From: Trebouxia sp. TZW2008
Lineage: Eukaryota; Chlorophyta; Trebouxiophyceae; Trebouxiales; Trebouxiaceae
Length of the DNA: 64,000 nucleotides
Assembly (NCBI GenBank): GCA_002118135.1
Contig: BDIU01000309.1
Coordinates: 21,916-85,915, forward strand
Direction: 5' to 3'
In this document: one piece after another, positions 40,277 through 57,460 of the stretch
Layout: each line of letters begins with the position of its first letter
Position numbering within the stretch: the stretch's first letter is position 1
The notes under the pieces: model-generated
What the model was told of the DNA's origin: nothing
Databases searched by the model: none
The model's input: only the letters and a program-made list of their open reading frames with translations
Made by a program: the position numbers and the translations under genes

Positions 40277-43200
40277 TCAGTCTATCCGGAAAGTAGACTT
40301 CAGCTTGACAACAAGCCTCCAGTCATCCTTGGTCATGTCCTCTTTGAAATGCTGTTTCAACAGATCAATGGACTTGCGAGAGATTTTGCTGACAAGCGGA
40401 TCCTGCAAGTAGCAAGCTTATGTTGACAACAGGCCTGGAACATCTCTGTTGCAGCTGAATACTACTTATTCAAGACGCAAGCGACTGAGATTCTCTTGCC
40501 AATTGGCCCAGCTGCTGTCAGAGGCATCATCAAACAGGACAGCAGGAACACAACATGCGTGCCACTGGTGCTTTTGAGTTTGTCACTGGGCTCAAAAGTG
40601 CTCGTGCAGTCGCTGCAGTGCAGAAAACATGTCAGCTTGAAGACAAGCCAAAACTGGTCAATGTGTACCTTAAAGTCAAAATGACGCCCGTACAGCCTTG
40701 TGGCCTCGGTTGCGTTTCCTGGCTCAATCTTCATGGCAACAGACTCGCCCTGCTTGGCTGTGTTGACAGGCTTGTGGTTCAGCTCCATGCTGGCAATGCG
40801 CCCAATGTCAATGCCACCTTGTGATGGCACACACAGCGGTGTGCCAACCTGCAACAAGCTTTTGGCATCAGTACTGTGACATGCCTGCCTGGCCCCAAGG
40901 CTTGCTAAACTTGACGCAAGCCTTCTTGCAAGGCATGCAGTTGGTGGAACAAAGGCATTCACTGATGTCTGCCAATGTCGGTGCGACCTTGTGACAAAAC
41001 ACACAGCGGTGTATCAACTTGCAACAAGCTTTGGGTACCAGAGGGGATTTTGCTAAAACTTTTTGCTTAGCGTCAAACTCTCAGTTAGGACTTGGTGCTC
41101 AGTAGTCTGTCTTCAAAGGAAACATTCAGTTGACGGAGCAAAGCAACAAGGACTTTGCATGCCTGCAGGCCAATGACTCTGCAGTCGGCGGCTCTGTGGG
41201 TGCGTAGTGCCCATGTGACCAGCGACCAGACTGGCAAAATGTAGGAGCAGGGAGAAGCAGCCAGCAGCACAGATAGAAGAGGTATGGCACCTTTGCAATG
41301 CCTTCTTCAATGTCCACTCCGACAACAATGGGGTCCTTCTTGTTGAAGACACAGTTGGGCAGAATGCGCAGGATGCATGGGAAGACGGCATCAAATTTGG
41401 CAGCCTCCTGCTCCTCATCCTTCACCTGTATTGCAGCATGCAGCTTGCTGATGATAATGTTGATCACGTTCAACATGTTGTGAATGTGAGTGAACAGATT
41501 ATTTGGCGCACAGACCAGCAGGGCTAGGCGTGTGTGCTCAAGCCTTGTCTTGCATACAGCTTGAGTGAGGCTCAGACCACAGCAAACTTTTTTTCGTAAT
41601 GACTGCTTTGGTTACCAAGCAGTTAATCTTACATCAATTGTCCTTACTGAGCAGGACCATTGCAGTCAGAATGCAGTGATTGGGTACCAATGGCGTTGTC
41701 CTTACATTAAGATTGTCCTTATATTGAGTGTCCTTGCACAGAGAGTTGACTGTACACGCATCCTGACGACGGCAACTTGCACATGCAGCTTTGCTACAGC
41801 CCACCTAAATGATCAGGCCATTTGGCTTAGCATTTCCACAATGACCACAATTGGACATACTGATCGAAGTCTTGCCTAGCTGTACAAAACATCCATTACA
41901 AGCACAACTGCAAGCACAAACAAGGTTTCGACACATCGAACATACAGATGCAGCAGTCACTTACCGTCTTCAGATAAGCCGTGAACTGGTCAAACAGGTG
42001 GTAGATGATGTCTGCTGTGAACACTTTGACTCCCAAGCTCTCAGCCATCTCTCTGGCCTCTCTGGTGACAGGCACATCAAAGGCCAGAAGGCAGGCAAAC
42101 TTCTTCCTTCCCTTCTCTAGCATCACACTGGCCCGCATGATGTCCTTCTTGTGCACTGGGCCGATGTTGATGCCAGAGACTGGAATCTTGACTGCTGGGG
42201 ATTTCAGGAACTCCAAGAGAGCTTCTAGAGATCCTAGAGTGGAGGCTTGCACACACACACCCTCCCCTGCAACAGATTAGTGGGCTGTTGAAGCCAAGTG
42301 ATGCTAGACTGTTTTGGCTGCTGGGGTTATGGGGGATTTGAGTAGGGCTTCAAAAGATCTTAGAGTGGAGGCTTGCACACACCCTCCCCTGCAAAATTTG
42401 GTGCACTGTCAACGGCAACAGTTCAATGCATTGTCAAGGCCAACTGTTGATGCCAGAGAGGGGAAACTTGACTGCTGGGGGTTTGAGGAACTCTAGGAGG
42501 GTCTCTAGAGATCCTGAAATGGAGGCTTGCACACGCAACCCCTGCCCTGCAGTTCGAAGCCAAGTCAAGCCAAAGCCGACCGGTGATGCCAGACCGTATA
42601 AGCCTGGGAAGGGGGCTTGAGTGAGTGAGCGCGTGGGTGGGGAAATCAGGGAGGCGGGGAGGATGGGAGCGAGGAATGGAGCGGTGACTAGTGAGCAAGC
42701 GAGCAAGGAGAAAGAGCGAGCGAGCGAGTGGGTAGGTGGGTGGGTGGGCGGGTGGGCGGGTGAGCGAGTGAGCGAGTGAGTGAGTGAGTGAGTGAGTGAG
42801 TGAGTGAGTGAGTGAGTGAGTGAGTGAGGGAGTGAGGGAGGTTCTATGAGTGGGTGAGTGAGTGAGTGAACAGATGAGTGAATTTGTGCGTATGTGCATT
42901 GTAAACAAGCAGGTGAGCAGCAAGCAATTGCATGAGTGAATGACTCCGTAAGTGAGTGAGCCAATGCATCTTGGAGAAAGGTAGGCAGACAGGCAGGCAG
43001 GAATGCAGTCCATGCATGCAGTGAGCAAGCTTGCCTGATCTATCCACGCTGCCAAAGATGTCCTTCATGTCCTCCATGACCTCAGCCTTCAGGGCCTCAA
43101 CGTCATCTCCAGGCTGGCTGACCAGCATCTGTGTGCCAGCCACTGCAGTCTCCAGGTTTTGGGCAGCAATCTTGACTCCCTGTGCTGCCTTGATCTGCTT

Positions 43201-46200
43201 GTGGTGCAGGTAGCTGCCTCGCACCCGCAGCTCCTGCAGCCCACACAAAAGATCAGCCACATCATGTCTTTATTCTTTTCGATGACCAAGACAGTCGCTG
43301 ATGCATTGCCATCAGCCAATAGCAAGACTGTGACTGGTGGCTGATTACTGCATGTCCATTGCACAGCAGGGACTTTGCCTCTGAGTTTGTGGTATGACAA
43401 GGCATGCCTGCCATGCGCTTGCATGAGAACAAGGGTGCTCAAACAAACATTTAGCGTAGTGTGTACCATGCAACTGTGCCACAGTGGTGCAGGTGTTCAT
43501 AAGGCCAATAGGAAAAACAGATCTGGAAGTATGAGTGATGAGCCTGCCAGGTCAGCATCTAGACCGTCAGGTCAGAGACAGATGCTGTTATTCAGTACAG
43601 AGCAGGGGCATAGAATTGGGCTTCACTGCAAGAGCCTACCTTGAGGGGGTGGGGGGTGAGCAGGGATCTGATCTGGGTCACAATGGGGCCCCCCATGCCG
43701 CACAGCACAATGGTGTCGCCCTCATGCAGCACGCCGTTCACCAGCACCACATCAATGGTTGTGCCCAGGCCCTCAATTACCTTCACCTCCAGCACTGTGC
43801 ACTGGGTCTCACTGATCACCATCAGTCTTGACGCCATCATAGACTGCAATGTCAGGCATAACAGTGCCAGTCAGTGTCATATCAGTTGGAAATGACATTG
43901 AGACTGCACCTGAGCTGCTCAAGGGAACCATGCTGCTTTGCAATTGAATGCCTGCGGTGTTGACATAGTTTTGCATACAGGCAGTCCTCGTAAAAGAGGC
44001 TGCATACATAGCAATCAGGCAGTGGCTGACATATTCAGAAAGGCACCATGGTCGCGCTCGAGCAACACATGAAGTTGTTCAACTCTGATCGTGCACTCCA
44101 GCACACCTGGGTGACTTGCACAGCAGCTGCAATCCCGAGCAACCAGTTGTGCATATGAAAGCTCATATTCAATGAAGCAAGCTGCAACAACCATGAATTG
44201 CCAGCCCATCTGAGCTGAAGCCACCAGTGACCACTTTGTGCTTCTGAAATTCATGTCTGGCAAGACCCACGCAAACAATCACCAGCAACAAGAAAGTACG
44301 TGTGTGAGGTTCACCAGCAGCTGCAGCATGTCAGGTAGGCCCTCTCCTGTGATAGCTTTGTGAGAACCACATGATCGTCACACAAGCAATGTCCAGAGAT
44401 TTGCAATTAAATCCAGAGTTCACGTGAGGTTGATGTCCAAAACAAATGAACTTAAAGTCCCAGCCCACCTGTGTGAGGTCCACCAGCAGCTGCAGCATAT
44501 CAGGTAAGCCCTCTCCTGTGATGGCACTTGTGGGCACCACATTCACATACTTGCGCTTGTCAGGGTTCTGCCAGTACAGAGCCACATTCAACCCCTGCTC
44601 ATTCAGGTTCAGCACCGACTGCTTCAATCGCTCGTCGAACTCCCGCCTGACGTGGTCTTTCTGGCTGTCCAGGCTCTGTCTGATTGGTGCGTCTGTCTGA
44701 GGTTTCCAGTCAAACAGCCTGTCAATCTGCAGTCAAAAGTGCTTGTGAGAGGTGTGCCACATAAGAATTGAGCCCCTGTTCAGCACAGACTGCTTCAATC
44801 GCTCATCAAAGTTGCGCCTGACGTGGTCCTTCTGTCTATCTAGGCTCTGTCTGGTGGGTGCATCTGTTTGAGGCTTCCAGTCAAACAGCCTGTCAGTCTG
44901 CAGTCAAAAGTGCTTGTGAGGGGTGTGCCACACAAGAACTGAGTCCCTGTTCAGCACAGACTGCTTCAATCGCTCATCAAAGTTGCGCCTGACGTGGTCC
45001 TTCTGTCTATCTAGGCTCTGTCAGATGGGTGCATGTGTTTGAGGCTTCCAGTCAAACAGCCTGTCAGTCTGCAGTCAAAAGTGCTTGTGAGGGGTGTGCC
45101 ACGTAAGAACTGAGTCCCTGTTCAGCACAGACTGCTTCAATCGCTCATCAAAGTTGCGCCTGACGTGGTCCTTCTGTCTATCTAGGCTCTGTCTGGTGGG
45201 TGCATTCTGTTTGAGGCTTCCAGTCAAACAGCCTGTCAATCTGCAGTCATAAAGTGATTGTGAGAGATCTGCTACATAAGAGCCACATTCAGCCTCTGCT
45301 CGTTCAGCACTGACTGCTTCAGCCGCTTATCAAAGTCACGCCTGGCATGGTCCTTTAAGCTGTTTAAGCTCTGTCTGATGTGTGCGTCCGTCTGAGGCTT
45401 CCAGTCAAAGAGCCTGTCAACCTGCAGTCACATGCAGAAGAACTTGCGTGAGCAGGAACTCACGTCCATTGAGGCAATGAGACCTTTTATCAGGTGCATT
45501 TGGATTACTGCATGCCTACATTTGGCATGCACTCATTTGTTTGTGATATGGATTGTTTCATACATCAGCATGAATCAGTGACATTCTTCACTCCATGAAT
45601 TGCCATCAGGACATGACCTTACAAATTGCTGCTCCGTCAGTGTTTCAGATGAGGCCAGAAAAAATTTGCAATGGAAAGCTGCTGGATTTGTGATCAGCCT
45701 AAGGAGCACTTTTGAGGCTGATCAATAAAGCCTGTACTACAACATGTCGCAACCCTGAGAACAGGCAGACCATAAGATCTAGCAGCGCCAATTGCAGAGC
45801 TTGCTTGCAGGCTTAAGCAAGCTCTGCAAGCCCAGACCGTTCTCAGAACAGCAACGTGTCCAAGTTACAGGTGCTGCAGGCAAATCAGGCTCATGTCTGC
45901 TGTTGAGGCCTGTATACATGCGTCTCTTCCCGCTGTTGTGCATTGGTCCAGAATTCCAGGTCCAGATCCAGAATTAAGTGCAAATACAAAGTTGACAGAG
46001 TAAACACAGCTTGAGTGTGATCATTCTGTCAGCCTTGATTTTGCAGTCAACCCTGAAGTCAAGCTCAACAGTTGGACCTGTATTGCAACAGGTATCAGAG
46101 TCGGGACAAAAGAAGTTGCTTGACTCCTTGGAGTGAAATCCGCTGGCGTGAGAAAGATTAAGAAGGAACAGGCTATGCCGTTTGGCGTCATAACAGCAGC

Positions 46201-49200
46201 CTCTGTGAGTAGAAGCAGCCTAGGATGAGCCTGACATGAGCTTCATGGCAGGTAAGGGGAGAAAGATCCTGATTGAACGCAACAGCAGTATAGCCCTGCT
46301 GGTCGAACCGTACCTTGTTGAGAGCAACAACAAAGGGCGTCTTGCGCATCTTGAGCAGGTTGATGGACTCAATAGTCTGCTGCTCCAGGCCGTGCATCAT
46401 GTCCACAACCAAGATGGCAATGTCACACAGGCTTGACCCCCTGGACCTCAAGTTTGAGAAGGACTCGTGCCCTGCAGTGCAGGATGCAGCATGTCAGCTG
46501 CTGTGTCACACACAACGCAAGGAGCAGCCAAGCTTCAAAAAAAGGTTATGTGCACCATGAAGATAGCAATGTCACACAGGCTTGAACCCCCGCACCTCAC
46601 ATTTGAGAAGGACTCACGCCCTGCAGTGCAGCGTACAGCATCTAAAGTACTGTGTCACAAACATGTGTGCCGACGCACATGACGCACAGCCGTATGGCCT
46701 GCAGAACGGTCCATGAGCAAGCCTGGCAGCAGGACTCCATATGCATTGCATAAAAAGTGAATCAGCAAGAAAGCATATGGCAAGCTGTACATATCACCTG
46801 GAGTGTCAAAGATCAGAACGCCAATTGACGAGAAACTTTCCTGCAATGTACCAAATGGGCACGACACAGAATCGTGGCAAGCTGCCTGAGACCTGGAGTG
46901 TCAATGACGAGCAGGCCTAGCATCTGCCGACTGTGACACTTACTGACAGAAAGCATACAGCAAGATGTGCAAGACACCTAGTATGTCAATGACGAGCAGG
47001 CCTGGAAGCTACCAAGAGATGGCAGTCATCAGGATGGCAGTTGTGTGCATTTGTACAATGCACACAGCACAGAGCCATGGCATGCAGAACGGCACCTGGT
47101 GTGTCGACGATGAGCAGGCCTGGCAGCTTCAGGGTGCTTTGTTGCCCAGATGCCCTCAAGGACTGGGTGCTCTTCAGCAGTCAAGTCTGATTGACACACT
47201 ATCAAATACGCATGACCAAAACAAGGGCGTATTGTGTGATACCTAGTGTGTGAATGATGCGGATGATAGCCAGCAAGAGACCCTCTGCACATGAGCAGAT
47301 GCACACAGTACAGAAGGACATGGCACCTGGTGTGTCAATGATGAGCAGGCCTGGCAGCTTGAGGTTGCTTTCTTCCCCAGAGGCCCTCAAGGACTGAGTG
47401 CGCTTCAGCAATGCGTCCTCAGGTACATATGTAGCACCAATCTGCTGTGTGATACCGCCGGCCTCACCGTCTTGGACATTGGTGCGCCGCACATTGTCCA
47501 GCAGCTTGGTCTTGCCTGCAGCAAGATGAGTGATGGATGCTTACATCTAGCCAAGCCCGTCAGGTCAATGAAGGATGTAACTTCAACGCAAACGTCTATG
47601 TTTGTCACCTGACAGATGTGCCGATGTGCATCAAGAAAACGTTCAACAACTCCCTTGTCACAAGTATCATGCCGTCAAACTGGCCAAGGACTATCTGCAG
47701 CTGCACTAGCAGCGCTGGCTGACACATGATATTTGTGCAGTTACAAAGCTGGCAAGCTTGCACCATAGAGCCTGTAACAATAGAAGGCCTAAGCAAGTGT
47801 GTATTCTGCAAGCAATTCATTGCAGCTTGTCACAGCACATTGACAAGTCCCAAGCTGCATTCAACAAAGCAGCAAAGGGCTCTTGTCACATGTCTGTCAT
47901 CAGCTACATGGAGACCTGACCTGTGTCCACATGACCCAAGATACAGCAGATGGGTGATCGCAGGTTCTCTTTGCTTCCAGCTGCCAAGGCTGCCTGCAAC
48001 CGCGCCTGCCGCTGCTCCTTGGCGGCCTGCAGCCGTCGCTCAGCTTCTTCTTCGCTGTCCTCTTCACTACCGCTGTACTCGGTGCTGCTGTCCTGCATCA
48101 GCCCACAGCAACAGGCATGAAGTTTTGAATCGTTTCAACACACGCTGCTGCAATGAGTGCTGCTGCTGCTTGGCAGCCTGCAGCCACAACCAGGCTCCTT
48201 CTTTGTCGTCCTCCTCAGTGCTGCTGTACTCGCTGCTGCTGTCCTGCACCAATGCACAGCAACAGCAATGAAGTGGGTAAATTGTTCCAACACATGCTGC
48301 TGTAACGAATGCCGCTGCTCATTGGCAGCCTGCAGCTGCTGCTCAGCTTCTTCCTTGCTGTCCTCCATACTGCTGCTGTACTCGCTGCTGCTGTCCTGCA
48401 CCACTGCAGCAGAAGTCAAAGCGATGGCAGCACAACAATGCAGCAACCGTCTTCGCTGAAGCAAGTTCCGTATATCAGTGCAGCAACAATTCTGGAGTGG
48501 ACATGCGTTAAGCGTCATGACAGGTGTTCTGTGTGAGTATGTCACCTGCTCACCAGAAGCCAAACAAGTGCAATGGTGGAAGCCAGTTGTGAGTATGGAG
48601 CGCAAGTGAGTATGGAGCGCAAACAACACCTTGAAGCTAAGTTTGCCCCACAAGCACTACATATGTACGAGACTGTAAGCAGGGAGAATGCACTGCAGGC
48701 TGCAAGCACAGTCAGGCAAAACTCTGCAAGCGACTTCTCCCAAACGCAACCAATGCTTGAGCAGCCAAATCACCTCATCTGAGTCAGTCTCAGACTCTTC
48801 CTCAGAGCTAGACTCCTCCTCAGACTCAGACTCCTCTTCTTCGCTTTCCTCCTTCTTCTTCTGCTCTGCAGCCTTGGCATTCTGCGGTTCAGGCTTGCTG
48901 AGCTGGGCTGCCTCAGGCTCAGGCTTCTTGGCTGGGGGGGCGTCCACCCCACTCTCCAAGGGTCGCTCAGCATCACCCTCAACAGCCTGTACATGCAATA
49001 GAAGTTGAAGAGACCATACAGCAGCTTGGGGGTCAAGCTTGCTGGGCTGGGCTGCCTCAGGCTCTGTTTTCTTGGCTGGTGGGGCATCCACCCCACCCTC
49101 CAGGGGTTACTTTGCAACCTGTTCAACAGTCTGTGCACACACATTTGAAGCTCAAGGCATGAATGCAAGAGCCACTTTCAACACAGGCAAATTCCTTCTT

Positions 49201-52200
49201 GAATGGGGGGGCATCCACCCCAGTATCCAGGGGTCGCTTGGCCTTACCCTCGACAGCTCGTGCATGCAATAGAATTTGAAGAGGCCAACAAGGTCTGCTT
49301 GCATGCACGCGTGATACATACCCAGCTGAGCAGCAAAATCATGAAGTTGCAGCTGTCCTGAGGAGGTTATGCAGTGATTTGGTTATACCAAAAACAAGCA
49401 GGTGGAACAAGAGTCGGACCACATACAGTATATGTACTAAAGCACTGTTGTACAAGACCTTTTGTAGCATGTGATGCATAAAGGTGTCATTCATTGTTTC
49501 GTTTTGGACACTGTCTATTGACCCCCCTGTTGGGTCCCAGGGACACAAAATGTAATTGATTGTTGCTCATACCTTCTGTTTGGCTTGAGCTGCTTGAGGG
49601 CCAATGGCTGGCACAGCGTCCATATCTTCCCAGCTCTCCACCTTGTCCTCCCAGTCATCCTCTGAAGACTCCTGTTGGGTGCTGTCTTTTGCCTCCTCAA
49701 CAGTCTGCCGTGCCTGTGCCACCAGCGTGTTAGTGTCAAGTCAACAGGCCAGCAGGCTTCATCTGAGGCATGCAACAACAATGCCATGCATACAGCATGT
49801 AGGAGATCATGGTGCACCCGCATGGTCAAGATTCACACACACAATTGGGTGTGTTCAAAAGAGCATCAGACTGCAAGTGCCGTTTGCTTGTGAAGGCTTG
49901 TGCATCACATCATGCTCCATTACTGGCCTCACAATACCTGGCTCGAGGTGGTCGACACGTCCTCACAAGGTCACCAGCAAAGCAAGTGTCGGTACAGCAT
50001 CCAAGTCACACTGCACGCAGGGTGGTGAATGCAGCAACAACGTTCCGAACTGGCTGTCTGAACCAAAGACAATAGCACATGCAGCCAGTCCCTCTGCACA
50101 GCCTTTTCCCGTTTGCATTTCCCTCACAGACAGTATTCTATACAACACGTGAGTGCCCACCTGAGCTTCCTGCTGACGGTGTTCCTCTTCGGCCTGCTGG
50201 GCCTGAGCCTTTGCCTCTTCGGCTTGAGCCTGTGCTGCATCAGTGCTGACCGCAGCTTCAGCCTGGGCCCCGGCTGCAGCAACATCACCCACAGCTGTGG
50301 CCAGCTGAGCCTCTCCTTCCGCAGGCTTGGGCTTGGGCTGTGGCTTCTTCTTGCCGTAGACCACCTTCTTCTTCGCTACAGGCTTGTCGTCCTCTCCTTC
50401 AATTGCTGCAAAAAGGCAGACATTGGGCTTATTGCATGGAAATCGGTCAGCACATCAGTGCCAGTTTGTGCTCATCAAGTGGCAGTGTGTAAGCAATGAT
50501 AGCAGCAGATATCTGGGCTTGACCCCTCATGGGCGTGTCCTGCTGACTGCTGCTGCTACAGTAGCCTCAAGCTGCTTCTGGGAGCCACTGACTCAGAAGT
50601 TAGTGGCTGATGGCATAGCTGCATCTGGGAGCAAAACACAATTGTAGGTGAGATTGATGGGACCACTATGGCTCTAGTAATTTGTACTACAGACCATTCT
50701 GAAAATGAGTATAACACGTGATTTCTCAATGCCATCAATAGCAGTATCAAGTGAACAAAACTTCTGGAACAAATCCTGTTGTGAAAGAACAGATCAGGGC
50801 TTTGCCTGTGGCTTCTATGCCAGCCTCCTTGAGGAACTGCTCCCTGACAGCAGCCAGGCGCTCAACATCCTCCTTGGCTTTGCCTGTCAGCAGCAAGTCC
50901 CACTACAATGATTGCAGTGAGGGCAAGCAGTGAACAAAGACTGCAACAAACAATGATAGTAACATAGCAGTGCAGAAGGCGTGCCTGTTGGGTCTTCAAT
51001 GCCAGCCTGCTTCAGGAACTGCTCTCTGACAGCAGCAAGGCGCTCGGCCTCCTTCTTGGCTTTGCCAGTCAGCAGCTTGCCCTCCCTTTTCAGCTGGGCC
51101 CGCCTTTCCAGCCTCTCTGCCTTGCGCCGCTCTGTGTCCTCCTTCTTCTGCCTTTCTTCCTCTTCTCGTCTGTGCTCCTCTTCTTCCTCCTAGGGAAACA
51201 GCAGGGCGTGTTAGCATGAGTTGTGCAGTGCTGATGTGAACATGTTATAAACAAAACTTTTGATGTGAGCATAGGCTATACATGCTTTGGTCACATGCCT
51301 TTGCAATACACCCCTCTTCTCCTCAGCAGGATTTTCTGCACGTATCATGCAGTGCTGGTGAGGCACAGTGCTGAATGCAAGCTTGTGCTGTGCTTGCAGA
51401 TAATGTTTGGGCTGTTCAACACATGGCAAAGTGAGCAGCATCACAATCTGGACCAAAGCAGTTTGAAAGCCTGGTGCAAACGGTCAAGCTGCTGCCAAAG
51501 TAGTACAAAGAGCTTCTTTGAGCGTACCCTGATGCGAGTCTCTTCAGCTATCCTAGCAGCTTCTGCTTCAGCTCTTTGCCTTGCCTCTACTTCCTCTTGC
51601 ATCTTACGAACAGCTGCAGACACCTACAAACACCAGTGACAGCCTCAAAGTCAGACTGGCGACTCAGATGAGCGATATGTCAGCCCCGCATGCAGTCTAT
51701 GTTTCAGCTGCATGATGTAGCCCAAGGCCAGGGTGCCTGATTGTCGAGAACTCTTGATGGACAGATTTTTCAAGTCAGGAACAGTGTTTGGCATACAGTG
51801 CAGAGAAATACTGATATGAGCGCATTGACATGTATTGCTCCAGTGGTCAACTTTTACAAGTTGCTTGTTAAGCAGTATGACAGTGAACACTCAAGCAACC
51901 TCTGTAAACAGCTGTTGCCAGAGAAGTAAACATGGTGAAACTCGGGCAGACTTACCTTTTTGCCACCCTTCTTTGCAGGGGCTGCAGCTGCTGCAGTGTC
52001 ATCTGCATCACCGCCGGCTTTCTTCGCCTTCTCTCTTGCCTTCTTCTTCGCCTTCTTCTTTTCTGCAGCCGTCATCTCCTGCAGCAGGATAGATCTGTCA
52101 ACAAGACGCTATGCAACCCATGAAAACGCCTGCTTTGTGGTTTGGACAAAGCCAAACGCCTTTTACTTGATCTTACAGCACAGATAATGCTGTTGACAGA

Positions 52201-55200
52201 TGAATTGCATTTGAACATACTGGCTGTACAGTTGTGAAGCGCTGGCAACTACAGCAGATAGCTCTGAGTCTGTAAGCTTGGGACAAGCGAGGAAACTCAA
52301 CAGACTGAACAGGCATGCTTCTTTCAGGCCAGTTGCAGACCTTGCCCGCTTCCTCAGGAGCCGCATCTTCTTCATCCTCGTCACCAGCTTCCGCAACGGC
52401 TTCTGTGGCATCTGCTGCAGCAGGTGCTGCCTCTGTCGACTGTGACTGAGCATCTGTTGTGCGCTCAGCTTCTGGCTTAGCTGCCGGAGCCATGCCCAGC
52501 TCTGCCAGCACAGCGTCCAGGTCCTCTTCTTCTTTGGCGCCACCCTTGCCCTTCTTCTTTTTCTTCTTGCCCTTGGCAGCATCAGCTGCAGGCTCAGCAG
52601 CTGCTGCTGGAGAAGCTGCTTCTGGCTGGGCAGAAGTAGATGTAGGGTCTGGTTTCTGCTCAGCTGGCCCGTCAAGCTCTGCCAGCAATGCGTCTATGTC
52701 CTCTGTGTCTGCTGCTGCTTTGCCTTTCTTCTTCTTGCCTTTGCTGGCTGACGGCTGAGCAGTGTCATCTGGCGACAGTGACTGCTGTTCTGCTGGGGCT
52801 GCTACCTCTGCATCTTCTTCTGCCAGAGCATCCAGCTCAGCATCAGCTGTAGCAGCTTTGACATCTGCATGTGAGCAGAGCATGATCATGCACAGCTTAA
52901 GCAACATTTTGTCAGGTACATGGGCATGACCGACATGCATCATGTTTTCTGGTATGAATGCCTTTGCCTGTCTCAAGTGCATACTTTGACGTGTGAAGCT
53001 GTTGCAAGCAGAGACTGCACTGTCGCCAACTGTTGCTTGCAGGGTAAACTTTCAACAGCAGTAGCAAGTCAGACAGTACCGTGTAAAGAGCCAAAGCAGA
53101 TGCCGCGCTCAAGATAAAAACAAACATGCCCACAAACTGATGCATAGCTGCTCAATCAGCGCAGGTTACAAATGCTTGTCCCGGCCAGCAGCATACCTCG
53201 CTTGACCTTGCTGCTCTTCTTTTTCTTCTTGCCAAAAGCCAAGGCCTCTTCTTCATCTTCGGGACCTGGATGGGCCCCATTCGCAAGGGCATCTGACTGG
53301 ATCTCAGCATCACCATTCTCTTCTGCATGTCCATTCTGATCCAGTGCAGCAAACACAGAGTCCAGGTCTGCTGTCTTCTTCTTGGACCTCTCTTTCGTCT
53401 TGCTTTTACCTGCACAGCATACAGATGCAGCTGTATGTACTGTGTAGCAAACACAAAGTCCAGGTCTGCTGTCTTCTTCTTGGCCTTCCTCTTGGTCTTG
53501 CTTTTACCTACACAGCATGCAGACGCAGCTGTAGAGAGCAAACTTGTCACTTGCAGCATATGGCTGATGACTGCAGGCATACGTCAAAGGCGTGGCTACC
53601 TGGCAAACAACAGCATGCTGACTTGTGATACTTTTGGTACTCGTTGAATGTCATGAAATGTGCAAGTCACACTAATCTGACTCAACACATATGAGGGTGC
53701 AAAGAATCATTGAATGGTCACCAGCAGACAAGGCGACGCGCTAGCCAAATGCAGAACAGCATGACCCTGACAGCAGCTTGACTTGTGCTACGGCTGCAAA
53801 GGTGAGCAAGCTGCAAGAGAGGCAGGTGTGAGTATGTGGCTACATCAAACATGGACGTGCTCAAAGCACAAACAGCGGAGAACTTTGTCTCAAGCTCTTT
53901 GGATCGAAGTAAAATCAGGGGACAGAGAGCCAGCAATCTGGTAAACATTTTGTACCAAGCTTGAAGCATTGAGCACTGGACAATTTTATCTCAATCTGTC
54001 CCTACTGATGAGATGAGACCACAAAATGCCATGGCACAAGTGCTGCCACAGACTGTCAAGCTCACAAGCAAAGGCATCCTCGTCATCCACATCAGCAGTG
54101 CCATTTGGAGCCTCATGATCTTTTCAATCAAGAGCAGCATTCAAATCAGCAACAAGTAGTTGCTGCAAAGCAGTGTAGACCAAATGCTGTGATTAAAGCG
54201 TCAAGACATGAACCTACCAGCAAAGCCATCTTCTGCATCCACATCAGCAGTGCCATCTGGAGCCTCATTGTCTTCTAAACCAAGAGCAGCAAACGCTGAA
54301 GCAGCGTCAGCGCCGCCCTTCTTGCCCTTCTTGCTTTTGCGTGCTGGGGCTGACACAGGAGCGTCCTCTGCTACTGCAGCCTCAGCAGTGCTTAATGGCT
54401 GGTCAAGCTGGTTTTCCTGTTCAGCGTCATCGCCATCCTCAAGACCCAGGGCAGCAAACGCTGACGCCGCATCTGACTGCTTCTTCTTGCCCTTCTTGGC
54501 TTTGCTCTTGGACGCTGCTACTGGTGCATCCTCTGCTTCATCAAGATCTCCAGATGGTTGAGCTGTCTCAGCATCGTCCTCAATGTCCAAAGCAGCAAAG
54601 GCTGAAGCTGCATCTGATTGCTTGTTTTTGCCCTTCTTGGCTTTGCTCTTAGGTGCTGCTACTGGCGCATCCTCTGCTTCATCAAGGTCTCCGGAAGGCT
54701 GGGCTGTCTCAGCATCGTCCTCAATGTCCAAAGCAGCAAAGGCTGCAGCCGTATCTGACTGCTTCTTCTTGCCCTTTTTGGATTTGCTCTTGGGTGCTGC
54801 GACTGGTGCATCCTCTGCTTCATCAAGGTCTCCAGAAGGCTGAGCTGTCTCAGCATCATCCTCAATGTCCAGAGCAGCAAAGGCTGAAGCCGTATCTGAC
54901 TGCTTCTTCTTGCCCTTCTTGCCTTTGCTCTTGGGTGCTGCGACTGGTGCACCCTCTGCTTCGTCAAGGTCTTCCAAAGGTTGAGCTGTATCATCATCAC
55001 CCTCTAGATCCAAGGCAGCAAATGCTGAGCCATTGTCCAAGTCTTTCTTCTTCTTGCTCTTTTTAGGCTTGCCTTTGGGTGCTGACTGAGGCAACTCCTC
55101 TGCCTCTTCAACTTCGACAGCAGGCTCGGTCATGCTTTCTGGGTCAACTTCATCGTCAACATCCAGCGCTGCAAAGCCCATAGTGGCATTGGTCTGTTTC

Positions 55201-57460
55201 TGTTTGCCTTTCTTTGACTTGCGCCCAGCAACCGATGCAAGCTCTGCTTCGTCAGGCACGGAGTCAGTGCGCTGAGCTTGCTGCTCTTCTTCATCACTGT
55301 CCAAGGCATCAAAGCCACTTGCAGCCTTTGCAGACCTGCGCTGCTTTTTGCCCTTCTGCTTTGGTGCTGCAGGCTCTTCTGCCTCAACTGCTGCTTCTGG
55401 GTCATTGTTGAATGAGTCAGCTGCCTTGCTGGCCTTACCCTTGTTGCCTGCCTTGCCCTTGCTGGGCTTCTCAGACACCTGGCAATCATGCTGCGATCAG
55501 TCAGACAGGCAGCTTGCGGTGTCAGGGCAGACACTGCAAGTTGAACACAGAGTGGATCTAATGGTAGACTTGAGTGTGTCTACTGCAAGATTGCCATGTT
55601 TTGCATAGGAACAGGCAAAGACCATAGTCAGACCGTACAACACAAGCAGGACAGCTGTAAGGGCAGTATCTCCAGCGTGGCCACAGTATCAGAGGCGTAC
55701 CTACAGTGAGCCTGCAATCCCCCAGCACATTACATGGCTTACATGGGAATGAGCATCTGAGATTTATGCACAAGCGCAAGTCCAGAGAAAAAGGTGGTCA
55801 CAATTGCCAACTGAACAAGCAGATCACCAAAGGCCGGTCTAAGACATATGCAGGAATGCAGACAGGCAAAGACAAATGGCATTTGCTGGCAAGCAGGTCT
55901 TGTCTAAAACAAAGACCCATCAACTACAACCGTCTCAATGCATGTGTCATACAAAGACCAGGCAAAGTCAAACACACCTTCGGAGGTTGAGCAGGGCAGG
56001 GGTCACCAGGCTGAGCATCATCAGGCATAACTACCAGCTTGCCATCTGCTTCCTCTGACCAGCCAATGTCATGGGCTGAGCACAGCATGCCAAAGCTGTC
56101 CACGCCTCGCACTGAGGTCTTGCTGATAGCTATGCCGGAGCCAGGGGTAGTGACCCCATCACCCTGCAGAAAGCTTGTCAGGTAAATACGTATTCATGTC
56201 ATGGGCTGAGCACAGCACGCCAAAGCTATCCACGCCGTGCACTGAGGTCTTGCTGAATGCTATGTCAGGGATGGTGACCCTGTCACCCTGCAGAAGGCTT
56301 GTCATGTGAATACCGCTATACCAAAAACAGCCTATTATGCACGTGTGTCATCTGCATGATGAAGAGGCGGCAGATCCATATTCTAATTTCCCTTGATTCT
56401 AGGGGGACTGGTCCAGCATCTTGTTGCAGATCATGGACAATTCTGAACTCAATCCAGGTAAATGGAAATCAAGCGATTAGGCAAACCCCTGTACTAGCCA
56501 ACAGGCTGTGAAAGCTGAAGGTCAAGGAACACCGCGCTTACCGCAAATATGACCTTCATGCCTGTTTTGACCTCAGCCGCATTCGTGACAACTTGTGCCA
56601 CATCATGCCCATAGTCAACTGAGCAGACCTTCAATCGATCAGACTTGGGGTGTGCATTCACACTGAAAACCTCCGCAACCAACAGCCCACCCTGCAAGCA
56701 GGAGACTGAGCTTCAGCATGCCATCTGTTGATGTCATACACCCACAGTGACACGATTGCTGCTGATATAGATCAAAGTTTCAAAAGATTCTGCAGGCACA
56801 GAGAAAAGTGAGCAGAGCAAAGTAGTGATGAGCGAAAAGTGCATTGCAGTGTATGCCCCAACTGCAATGCTACTAGCATCCGCATCAATACAAAGCGCAG
56901 CATGTTAACCCAATTCGATCTGCATTCACACCTGCGGATCAGCTTCATTGTCTTCATCTGAAGCAGCCTCATTGTCATCGTCAGACACTGCTTCATTGTC
57001 AAGGTCAGCACTACGGCTCTGTCCCTTGGCAGGTGCCTGTATCTGTGCTTCATTGTCATCAATATCATCATCAAGCACATCAAAAGCGCTGGCAGGCTGC
57101 TTGCCGGATGCTTTCTTGCCAGCAGATGCTTTCACAGCAGGTGCTGCAACATGCTCTTCTCCCGAGTCAGCCACTGCCAGCCCAGCTGCCTCATCATCAG
57201 AACCCCAGCCTGGATCCTTGGCTTTGCCCTGACCGGAACGAGCTCGAATGTGAGAGGTAGTGGTATTGCTAGTAAGTGTGTGCTGCTGAGCGAGTCACCA
57301 GCAGACCGACCTTCTTAGCCTTTTTCTTCTTGTCTTGCTTTTTGGGTGCCGCGACTGGAGCGTCCTCGATCGCGGGATTAGCGTCTGCGCTCGCCTCTGC
57401 CGCCTCTAGAAAGTCGTCGTCGATATCTGGGGCGCCTTTGCGTTGCTTCTTTTTACCCAT
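40277..57460 (-). CDS. EIF5B: Translation initiation factor eIF5B with embedded tRNA-binding domain
   Basis: GTPase that joins ribosomal subunits and stabilises initiator Met-tRNA. More than 20 exons encode roughly 1,900 residues. Order from the N-terminus: Lys/acid-rich exons A (57460-57311) and B (57228-56932); tRNA-binding OB-fold exons C (56691-56542, [20 protein letters not shown]) and D (56163-55978, [18 protein letters not shown]); a repeated [15 protein letters not shown] region (55.49-54.2 kb); more charged exons to 48 kb; G domain with GHVDTG|KT (split by an intron, 47.9/47.52 kb), [20 protein letters not shown] (46.3/44.7 kb) and SAITGEG; domain II (43.8 kb, [21 protein letters not shown]); domain III (42.27-41.96 kb, [16 protein letters not shown]); domain IV, ending [16 protein letters not shown]...STFRID. 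Exons A to E all join in phase 0, and the G-domain junctions also match. Two introns start with GC (after 50985 and 43035). Gene identity is certain; a few mid exons are approximate. Confidence 0.9.
40820..41035 (-). repeat. Two-copy duplication at an eIF5B acceptor
   Basis: The exon start coding [11 protein letters not shown] with its acceptor region (about 40820-40870) recurs about 164 bases further at 40984-41035 (CACACAGCGGTGT..CAACTTGCAACAAGCTTT). The outer copy is degraded (QGG is lost). Confidence 0.7.
42240..42560 (-). repeat. Three copies of the eIF5B domain III exon start
   Basis: The real exon begins at about 42267 ([21 protein letters not shown]). A truncated copy lies at about 42400-42310. 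A nearly complete first segment lies at about 42555-42435, open on the - strand as [19 protein letters not shown] and continuing [12 protein letters not shown]. The outer copies have acceptors but no matching donor close by. Confidence 0.8.
42625..42965 (-). repeat. GAGT tetranucleotide-rich satellite in an eIF5B intron
   Basis: About 340 bp dominated by GTGAGTGAGTGAG, most regular at 42760-42830, with GGGTGGGC and GAGCGAGC variants at the edges. On the eIF5B sense strand it is CTCA-rich. Confidence 0.9.
44280..44530 (-). repeat. Duplicated end of the eIF5B G5 exon
   Basis: The exon end coding [18 protein letters not shown] (about 44535-44468) with its donor is repeated at about 44355-44290 in the next intron as [13 protein letters not shown], still followed by GT on the - strand. 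Confidence 0.75.
44700..45430 (-). repeat. Five copies of the start of the eIF5B NKxD exon, about 170-183 bp period
   Basis: The exon start coding [12 protein letters not shown] with its acceptor occurs with its boundary near 44727, 44899, 45069, 45240 and 45422. Only the 44727 copy runs on into the full exon ([22 protein letters not shown]5 motif). The others end after KQSVLN-like codons and break into intron sequence. The outermost copy (45422) is open as [17 protein letters not shown]. Confidence 0.85.
46420..46660 (-). repeat. Duplicated start of an eIF5B G-domain exon
   Basis: The exon start around 46475-46420 ([19 protein letters not shown]) is echoed at about 46620-46555, including AATGTCACACAGGCTTGA and TTTGAGAAGGACTC, then diverges. 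Confidence 0.72.
46795..47350 (-). repeat. Five copies of the eIF5B G3-motif exon end
   Basis: The segment coding [11 protein letters not shown] plus donor (CACCTGGTGTGTCAATGATGAGCAGGCCTGG on +) occurs near 46797, 46892, 46976, 47092 and 47325; the last is the real exon. The 47092 copy also keeps about 80 bp of upstream exon (LRASG..SNLKLPG). Other copies are shorter and more decayed. Confidence 0.82.
48020..48410 (-). repeat. Three copies of an acidic eIF5B exon start
   Basis: The exon coding [24 protein letters not shown] (about 48100-48020) is repeated at about 48250-48165 ([19 protein letters not shown]) and 48405-48320 ([22 protein letters not shown]), each with an acceptor-like upstream tract. 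All three are open over this segment. Confidence 0.8.
48890..49260 (-). repeat. Three copies of an eIF5B exon start (GVDAPPAKK)
   Basis: The sequence coding [25 protein letters not shown] (about 48975-48895) recurs at about 49110-49030 ([16 protein letters not shown] in a related frame) and again, shorter, at 49255-49190 ([13 protein letters not shown]). Confidence 0.75.
50790..51075 (-). repeat. Duplicated eIF5B exon end with GC donor
   Basis: The exon end [25 protein letters not shown] (51075-50985, then GC) is duplicated at about 50890-50810 ([25 protein letters not shown]), also followed by GC. The period is about 180 bp. Confidence 0.8.
53190..53525 (-). repeat. Duplicated start of a Lys-rich eIF5B exon
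   Basis: The exon start [24 protein letters not shown] (about 53410-53335) is repeated upstream in - sense at about 53510-53440 ([22 protein letters not shown]), with its own CAG/TAG acceptor-like end. Confidence 0.8.
54069..54300 (-). repeat. Duplicated end of the large repetitive eIF5B exon
   Basis: The exon end around 54300-54219 ([23 protein letters not shown]) recurs at about 54145-54069 in the next intron with many substitutions. The period is about 152 bp. Confidence 0.75.
54420..55010 (-). repeat. In-frame protein repeat of 47 residues in eIF5B
   Basis: Four to five near-identical copies of a 141-bp coding unit, each giving [19 protein letters not shown] followed by [26 protein letters not shown]. 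The unit length is a multiple of three, so the copies are fully coding, unlike the intronic arrays. Alternating acidic and basic blocks suggest a flexible charged linker. Confidence 0.88.
55978..56691 (-). other. tRNA-binding (PheT-B2/EMAPII-like) OB-fold inside eIF5B
   Basis: Exons 56691-56542 (50 codons) and 56163-55978 (62 codons) encode a full tRNA_bind-type OB-fold of about 110 residues. Diagnostic segments are [52 protein letters not shown] and [19 protein letters not shown]. Both exons begin and end in phase 0 and their neighbours (56932, 55489) do too, so they splice cleanly into the factor. The form with a RGV.S.GMLCS motif and the D.A..G ending is like bacterial PheT/YtpR domains as well as AIMP1/Arc1. 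Binding of tRNA is inferred from the family. Confidence 0.82.
56160..56300 (-). repeat. Duplicated start of the second tRNA-binding exon
   Basis: The acceptor and first ~100 bp of the exon coding [20 protein letters not shown] are repeated at about 56290-56195 ([23 protein letters not shown] in degraded form). The copy has a 6-bp deletion and lacks the exon's second half. Confidence 0.78.

Follow-up and report, generated by a model that had tools for sequence, protein, structure and literature searches.

The window analysed here, a 64,000-nucleotide stretch of contig BDIU01000309.1 from the green alga Trebouxia sp. TZW2008, carries on its minus strand a gene for the translation initiation factor eIF5B that, in our hand-built model, runs from 57460 to 40277 and comprises 23 exons encoding 1908 amino acids and a stop codon. 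Exons A to E lie where a first-pass annotation of this DNA had placed them and are bounded by GT donors and AG acceptors. The first four measure 150, 297, 150 and 186 nucleotides, the joins A-B, B-C, C-D and D-E are all in phase 0, and past exon E the reading frame continues through 18 more exons to the eIF5B stop at 40277. Two introns of the model, those following exons J and S, are of the GC-AG type, while the others are GT-AG. The features of the locus, with identities to the Trebouxia homologue P0003 where these are informative, are as follows.

57311..57460, minus strand: exon A, start codon and charged N-terminus (MGKKKQRKG...), phase 0 at its end; 35/50 identical to P0003
56932..57228, minus strand: exon B, disordered acidic and Lys-rich stretch, phase 0/0, without a Pfam match
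56542..56691, minus strand: exon C, aa 150-199, first half of a tRNA-binding OB fold assigned to the PheT type, phase 0/0; 45/50 identical to P0003
56196..56287, minus strand: incomplete tandem duplicate of exon D's 5' portion, within the C-D intron; 82.7% identity over 98 columns
55978..56163, minus strand: exon D, aa 200-261, second half of the domain with the RGVDSFGM loop and contact residues R218, S222 and M225, phase 0/0; 49/62 identical to P0003
54218..55478, minus strand: exon E, linker with KKGKK/AFAALD repeats, phase 0 in and phase 1 out
48774..53409, minus strand: exons F-M, remainder of the charged linker, from the hand-built model aligned to P0003
40277..48092, minus strand: exons N-W, GTPase and domains II-IV with the stop at 40277; PF00009, PF03144, PF11987 and PF14578 over cut-off

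Exon E holds a 141-bp tandem array (54451-55028), and copies exist for 11 of the 23 exons. We considered the partial exon-D copy as an alternative exon and rejected it: 124 nucleotides separate its acceptor from exon D, a length not divisible by three, and because reading through it breaks the frame we take the copy to be a relic.

The core encoded by this gene matches the eIF5B chain of 7tql with 756 bits (E=2.1e-226, residues 2-600 of the 601-aa query), and IF2 chains score 107.7 bits or less. We class the protein by sequence as the cytosolic eIF5B type, not as a bacterial or organellar IF2; like other eIF5B proteins of the IF2 family of translational GTPases, it has a full-length core with the GTPase and domains II-IV. 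Scanned with Pfam, the whole model shows the four core families and, at aa 153-253, the tRNA-binding domain PF01588, each over its cut-off.

If exons A to D were a separate gene, or the model had been wrongly joined, this extra domain would not be part of eIF5B. We found no point in favour of such an artefact and regard it as scarcely credible. All exon joins are in phase, and the domain shares one continuous 1908-aa frame with the GTPase and domains II-IV, so that the first-pass proposal that it belongs to eIF5B holds. In P0003, a protein of 1765 aa (5,298 nucleotides with the stop) on a contig of 5,534 nucleotides, the domain and the GTPase likewise lie in one frame. This homologue aligns to all 23 window exons, which span 17 kb in the window gene, and its contig is very likely a transcript, because 5,534 nucleotides leave no room for such introns. 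An independent A-D gene is therefore very unlikely. Gene models made independently for several algal genera also show the fusion, as does P0007, whose MMETSP label we take to denote a transcriptome project. The continuous frame, the P0003 contig and the Pfam families of the full-length model together led us to reject the separate-gene and mis-joined readings.

In the genome we found a single eIF5B locus and a single domain of the PheT type. When the Parachlorella domain was searched against the 68.5-Mb assembly from which the window comes, the two matches were exons C and D. A search with the eIF5B core gave 14 matches, 12 of them on the window's contig and the other two being 39-40% identical pieces elsewhere. 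PF01588 itself has 10 matches in the genome; an HMM of the algal domain, run on six of these loci on four contigs (leaving aside the second match on C252 and the match on C151), scored the other loci at 12-29 bits and the window domain at 166.

Identity and conservation of the extra domain

Exons C and D together (aa 150-261) match PF01588 with E=2.5e-17 and 63.2 bits against a cut-off of 27, covering profile positions 2-95 of 96; within the full 1908-aa model the same profile scores 56.5 bits. The match is far beyond chance, and the two exons form a complete PF01588 tRNA-binding domain, in agreement with the first-pass annotation. The label given there, PheT-B2/EMAPII-like, is apt in its first half and not in its second. 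Amongst curated bacterial families, PheT (TIGR00472) scored best with 88.9 bits over model positions 46-149, followed by YtpR with 82 (under that family's cut-off of 100, the 112-aa domain alone having been scanned), TapR with 68.2 and MetRS with at most 18. Among solved structures the best matches are chains of bacterial PheT, with 4p71 in the lead (E=8.5e-19). Because PheT leads both the curated families and the solved relatives, we assign the extra domain on sequence grounds to the PheT type of tRNA-binding domain and not to the EMAPII/MetRS type, whose members belong to the same Pfam family but score low against it. An EMAPII/MetRS origin is likewise unsupported by the MetRS models and by the low scores of the other scanned PF01588 loci of the genome.

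The window domain has the RGVxSxGM loop in common with its counterpart in bacterial PheT but differs from it in being fused to eIF5B and in standing without the other PheT domains: PF03483, PF03484 and PF17759, as found in P0121, did not come up when the full model was scanned with Pfam. A second difference from PheT and YtpR is a tryptophan, W234: 42 of the 44 eIF5B domains have it but none of 33 PheT/YtpR rows does, which makes it a candidate eIF5B-specific mark.

How this fold binds tRNA is described for Trbp111, which uses it to take the 3'-terminal CA (C75-A76) of tRNA; amongst the Trbp111 mutants reported, Arg75 had the largest effect, followed by Lys33, Ser82, Met85 and Phe78, and in Arc1p the places of Arg75, Ser82, Met85 and Phe78 are taken by Val271, Ser278, Met281 and Arg274 (PMC11286949). 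The algal eIF5B domains keep the serine in 43/44 proteins, the methionine in 43/44 and an arginine or lysine at the Phe78 place in 43/44, the sole exception at all three being P0009, a gene model that deviates from the family there. Of the 41 algal rows that extend to the Lys33 place, 39 have lysine or arginine there. The Arg75 place, in contrast, is alanine in 21 of the 44 domains, threonine in 14 and valine in four, and PheT and Arc1p likewise lack this arginine. The window domain therefore shares with Trbp111 and Arc1p the fold family and the serine, methionine and basic contact positions, but differs from both in its fusion to a translational GTPase, which neither has as described in that source, and in having mostly alanine or threonine at the Arg75 place (PMC11286949). 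Since the serine, methionine and basic positions are kept and the Arg75 place mostly holds alanine, threonine or valine, the domain probably has a 3'-end site of the Arc1p/PheT kind that works, perhaps weakly.

The same fold is also known from protein assemblies. Trbp111 is described as a very stable homodimer, and the related domains of Arc1p and AIMP1 reside within synthetase complexes (PMC11286949). The algal OB fold could accordingly dock an aminoacyl-tRNA synthetase or dimerise, bringing a synthetase to the initiation complex without itself holding tRNA, and W234 could mark an eIF5B-specific contact of this sort. We consider this unlikely, as the tRNA-contact positions rank amongst the best conserved of the domain and no partner is known.

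Within Trebouxia, conservation is far higher in the domain than in the stretches on either side. The window and P0003 are identical at 45/50 positions in exon C and 49/62 in exon D, compared with 41/99 in exon B and 167/420 in exon E, while exons N-W are 87-100% identical. AlphaFold models ten-residue blocks of the domain in the homologue P0023 with a mean pLDDT of 72-94, whereas the flanks (residues 1-122 and 244-390) fall below 50. The prediction is thus of a confidently folded module attached by a flexible tether; approximately 1,050 aa separate the domain from the GTPase in the window protein. The 50 matches listed by a Foldseek search with the P0023 model are all eIF5B, aIF5B or IF2 chains, and none of those listed bears on the extra domain.

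A linker that is long and predicted to be disordered might also be cut, freeing an N-terminal tRNA-binding piece with a role of its own, as is the case for AIMP1/EMAPII. Processing of EIF5B has been reported in human, Arabidopsis and Chlamydomonas native proteomics (PMC11297038). The parts of that report available to us give no detail on the Chlamydomonas eIF5B fragment, however, and state for EIF3A that some such fragments may come from preparation (PMC11297038). We judge a released fragment decidedly improbable as the explanation of the domain.

Distribution and history of the fusion

We scored 121 eIF5B proteins with the algal-domain HMM, namely the 120 listed, out of 3,159, by a search with the GTPase region plus the window model, and found the fusion in 44. 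The remaining 77 lack it, 73 having no HMM match and four scoring at chance level. Of 160 candidates in a search with the domain, seven proteins reached E<=1e-3, and every one of them is an eIF5B. With a consensus domain, 31 of 297 candidates matched, comprising 24 eIF5B and seven PheT proteins, and no other architecture was found among these candidates. All of these searches reach relatives that have exact words in common with the query, and red algae, glaucophytes and early streptophytes lie outside the sample.

A check of other chlorophyte eIF5B proteins, as the first-pass annotation had suggested, thus found the domain well beyond the window. Named carriers comprise Trebouxia, Myrmecia, Elliptochloris, Coccomyxa, Symbiochloris, Auxenochlorella, Parachlorella, Volvox, Mantoniella and, by the label Botrbrau1, Botryococcus; amongst streptophyte algae they comprise Closterium and, by the label Mesen1, Mesotaenium. 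As its relative Volvox has the fusion, eIF5B of Chlamydomonas, which is amenable to genetics, probably has it too. Among the 121 proteins the domain is absent from Bryopsis (P0038), from the gene model P0080 (Spirogloea by its label) and from the green-algal protein P0037, as well as from the other 74 of the 77. All of these 74 except P0075 can be assigned to land plants or fungi, either from the name or from the position in the core tree. The N-terminus of P0037 looks truncated. Since Bryopsis, Spirogloea and land plants manage without it, the domain is not essential to eIF5B as such.

The eIF5B core tree was built from 73 of the 121 proteins. Three domain carriers with short cores (P0002, P0023 and P0073) were dropped, and 45 of the 77 domain-free proteins were left out, which thinned land plants and fungi. 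In this tree the window protein groups with Trebouxia (94% identity to P0001). Carriers are found both within the chlorophyte part and within the zygnematophytes, and it takes four changes to explain where the domain occurs.

The domain tree was built on 113 columns from 34 of the 44 eIF5B domains, the other 10 being partial or near-identical, and 32 PheT/YtpR rows from bacteria. A pattern scan of contigs (e.g. V[ED]S[FE]GMLC, which favours proteobacteria) yielded 583 confirmed loci, of which 80 were kept and 21 used in the trees; the bacterial rows are mostly proteobacterial and no PheT row is known to be cyanobacterial, so that this sample speaks neither for nor against a plastid-ancestor source of the domain. 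An earlier version included a single EMAPII-type row, which formed a very long branch placed among the eIF5B rows, and the eIF5B domains then fell on one side in 0/200 bootstraps. After removal of this row and of the long PheT_P0122, the rebuilt tree put all eIF5B rows on one side against the bacterial PheT/YtpR rows with a support of 100/100 (200/200 bootstraps). The tree that the first-pass annotation had called for as a guide to the domain's source thus separates the eIF5B domains from their bacterial relatives but does not single out a donor group. A chlorophyte-only clade in the domain tree, in which the 31 chlorophyte rows were held apart, was not rejected (p 0.225).

These trees fit a single fusion before the split of Chlorophyta and Streptophyta, with later loss toward land plants, and we infer such a history; the fusion is then likely as old as the green lineage. 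Transfer between green lineages is an alternative to a single ancient origin that the domain tree does not reject (p 0.225). The first-pass annotation had instead proposed exon shuffling aided by symmetric exons, and recent shuffling finds no support here: the fusion is spread across Chlorophyta and Zygnematophyceae, the nearest relatives found are bacterial PheT domains, and an intron lies within the domain. With an intron splitting the domain, the fusion widespread and the nearest relatives bacterial, the introns are more likely to be younger than the fusion.

A possible role at the tRNA 3' end

Domain IV of eIF5B contacts 73-ACCA-76-Met of the initiator tRNA (PMC7538418). The PheT-type domain at the other end of the protein would grip the 3'-terminal CA of tRNA, mainly that of Met-tRNAi, swing on the predicted disordered linker and hand the acceptor end from the N-terminal OB fold to domain IV. 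In published structures each kind of module is bound to this same tRNA end, which is why binding would alternate between the OB fold and domain IV; the two modules of eIF5B would then either compete for that end or pass it on. Such a hand-over in green-algal eIF5B, with a single ancient origin and loss in land plants, seems to us about evenly balanced between right and wrong. More tentatively, and with the chances somewhat against it, a 3'-end gripper derived from bacterial PheT may have joined eIF5B in the ancestor of green algae and plants, giving a two-handed CCA relay with domain IV from which land plants dropped the second hand.

Alternatively, the domain could pick up tRNA that is stray or deacylated in the vicinity of the ribosome, or control tRNA traffic, with little part in the hand-over of Met-tRNAi. 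Trbp111 recognises any tRNA through its 3' CA, and recycling and trafficking roles have been suggested for the fold (PMC11286949). However, eIF5B acts beside Met-tRNAi, whose CCA end domain IV holds (PMC7538418), and we think stray-tRNA capture quite unlikely.

With respect to novelty, the first-pass annotation had called the architecture new, and our search of the open-access literature found no description of it. The available parts of a 2015 survey of translational GTPases describe the eIF5B N-terminus as extended and variable and make no mention of the domain found here (PMC4342817). Compared with N-termini so described, that of the window protein contains a domain predicted to be folded. 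Public domain databases probably show the architecture already, as the fusion is visible in precomputed Pfam lists. The novelty lies in how the two parts are combined, in the likely age of this fusion and in its distribution; each part by itself is of a known kind.

eIF5B is a universal factor, and here a domain that is conserved across the classes of green algae sits in its variable N-terminal region. This points to a concrete function for an N-terminus of eIF5B, one open to testing, and the domain's predicted target on tRNA is the very end held by domain IV. The bacterial affinity of the domain suggests a contribution, by gene transfer or from an endosymbiont, to the cytosolic initiation machinery, and its putative lineage-specific loss in land plants would need explaining.

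Tandem arrays within eIF5B

Several stretches of the eIF5B gene are occupied by tandem arrays:

54451-55028, tandem array with a 141-bp unit, 4.1 copies, within exon E
44607-45430, tandem array with a 171-bp unit, 4.8 copies, exon Q region
42760-42869, array of the tetranucleotide GTGA, 27 copies, intron between exons S and T

The 141-bp array encodes the KKGKK/AFAALD repeat units of the protein. The length of the KKGKK/AFAALD array differs amongst Trebouxia eIF5Bs, and when the window protein is aligned with its Trebouxia homologues, gapped residues within exon E number 145 against P0003 and 358 against P0001. The 171-bp array contains four decayed part-copies of exon Q, which encodes the end of the G-domain, lying upstream and followed by the full exon. 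Local repeats are also found elsewhere in the window, in the 0-4, 8-12 and 28-32 kb bins.

The Elliptochloris bilobata model

Within residues 115-228 of P0009, the eIF5B of Elliptochloris bilobata, the gene model matches the family through the first half of the tRNA-binding domain and diverges ahead of the RGVxSxGM loop. This divergence probably reflects a missed exon, or else a decayed domain.

Exon copies in eIF5B introns

Between 40900 and 56300, partial tandem copies of 11 of the 23 exons (D, E, F, J, M, N, O, P, Q, T and V) are located in eIF5B introns. These copies are 47-169 bp long, share 77-89% identity and the same orientation with their source exons, and sit in neighbouring introns at a distance of 33-532 bp. 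The eIF5B introns of the window are rich in putative 'fossil exons'.
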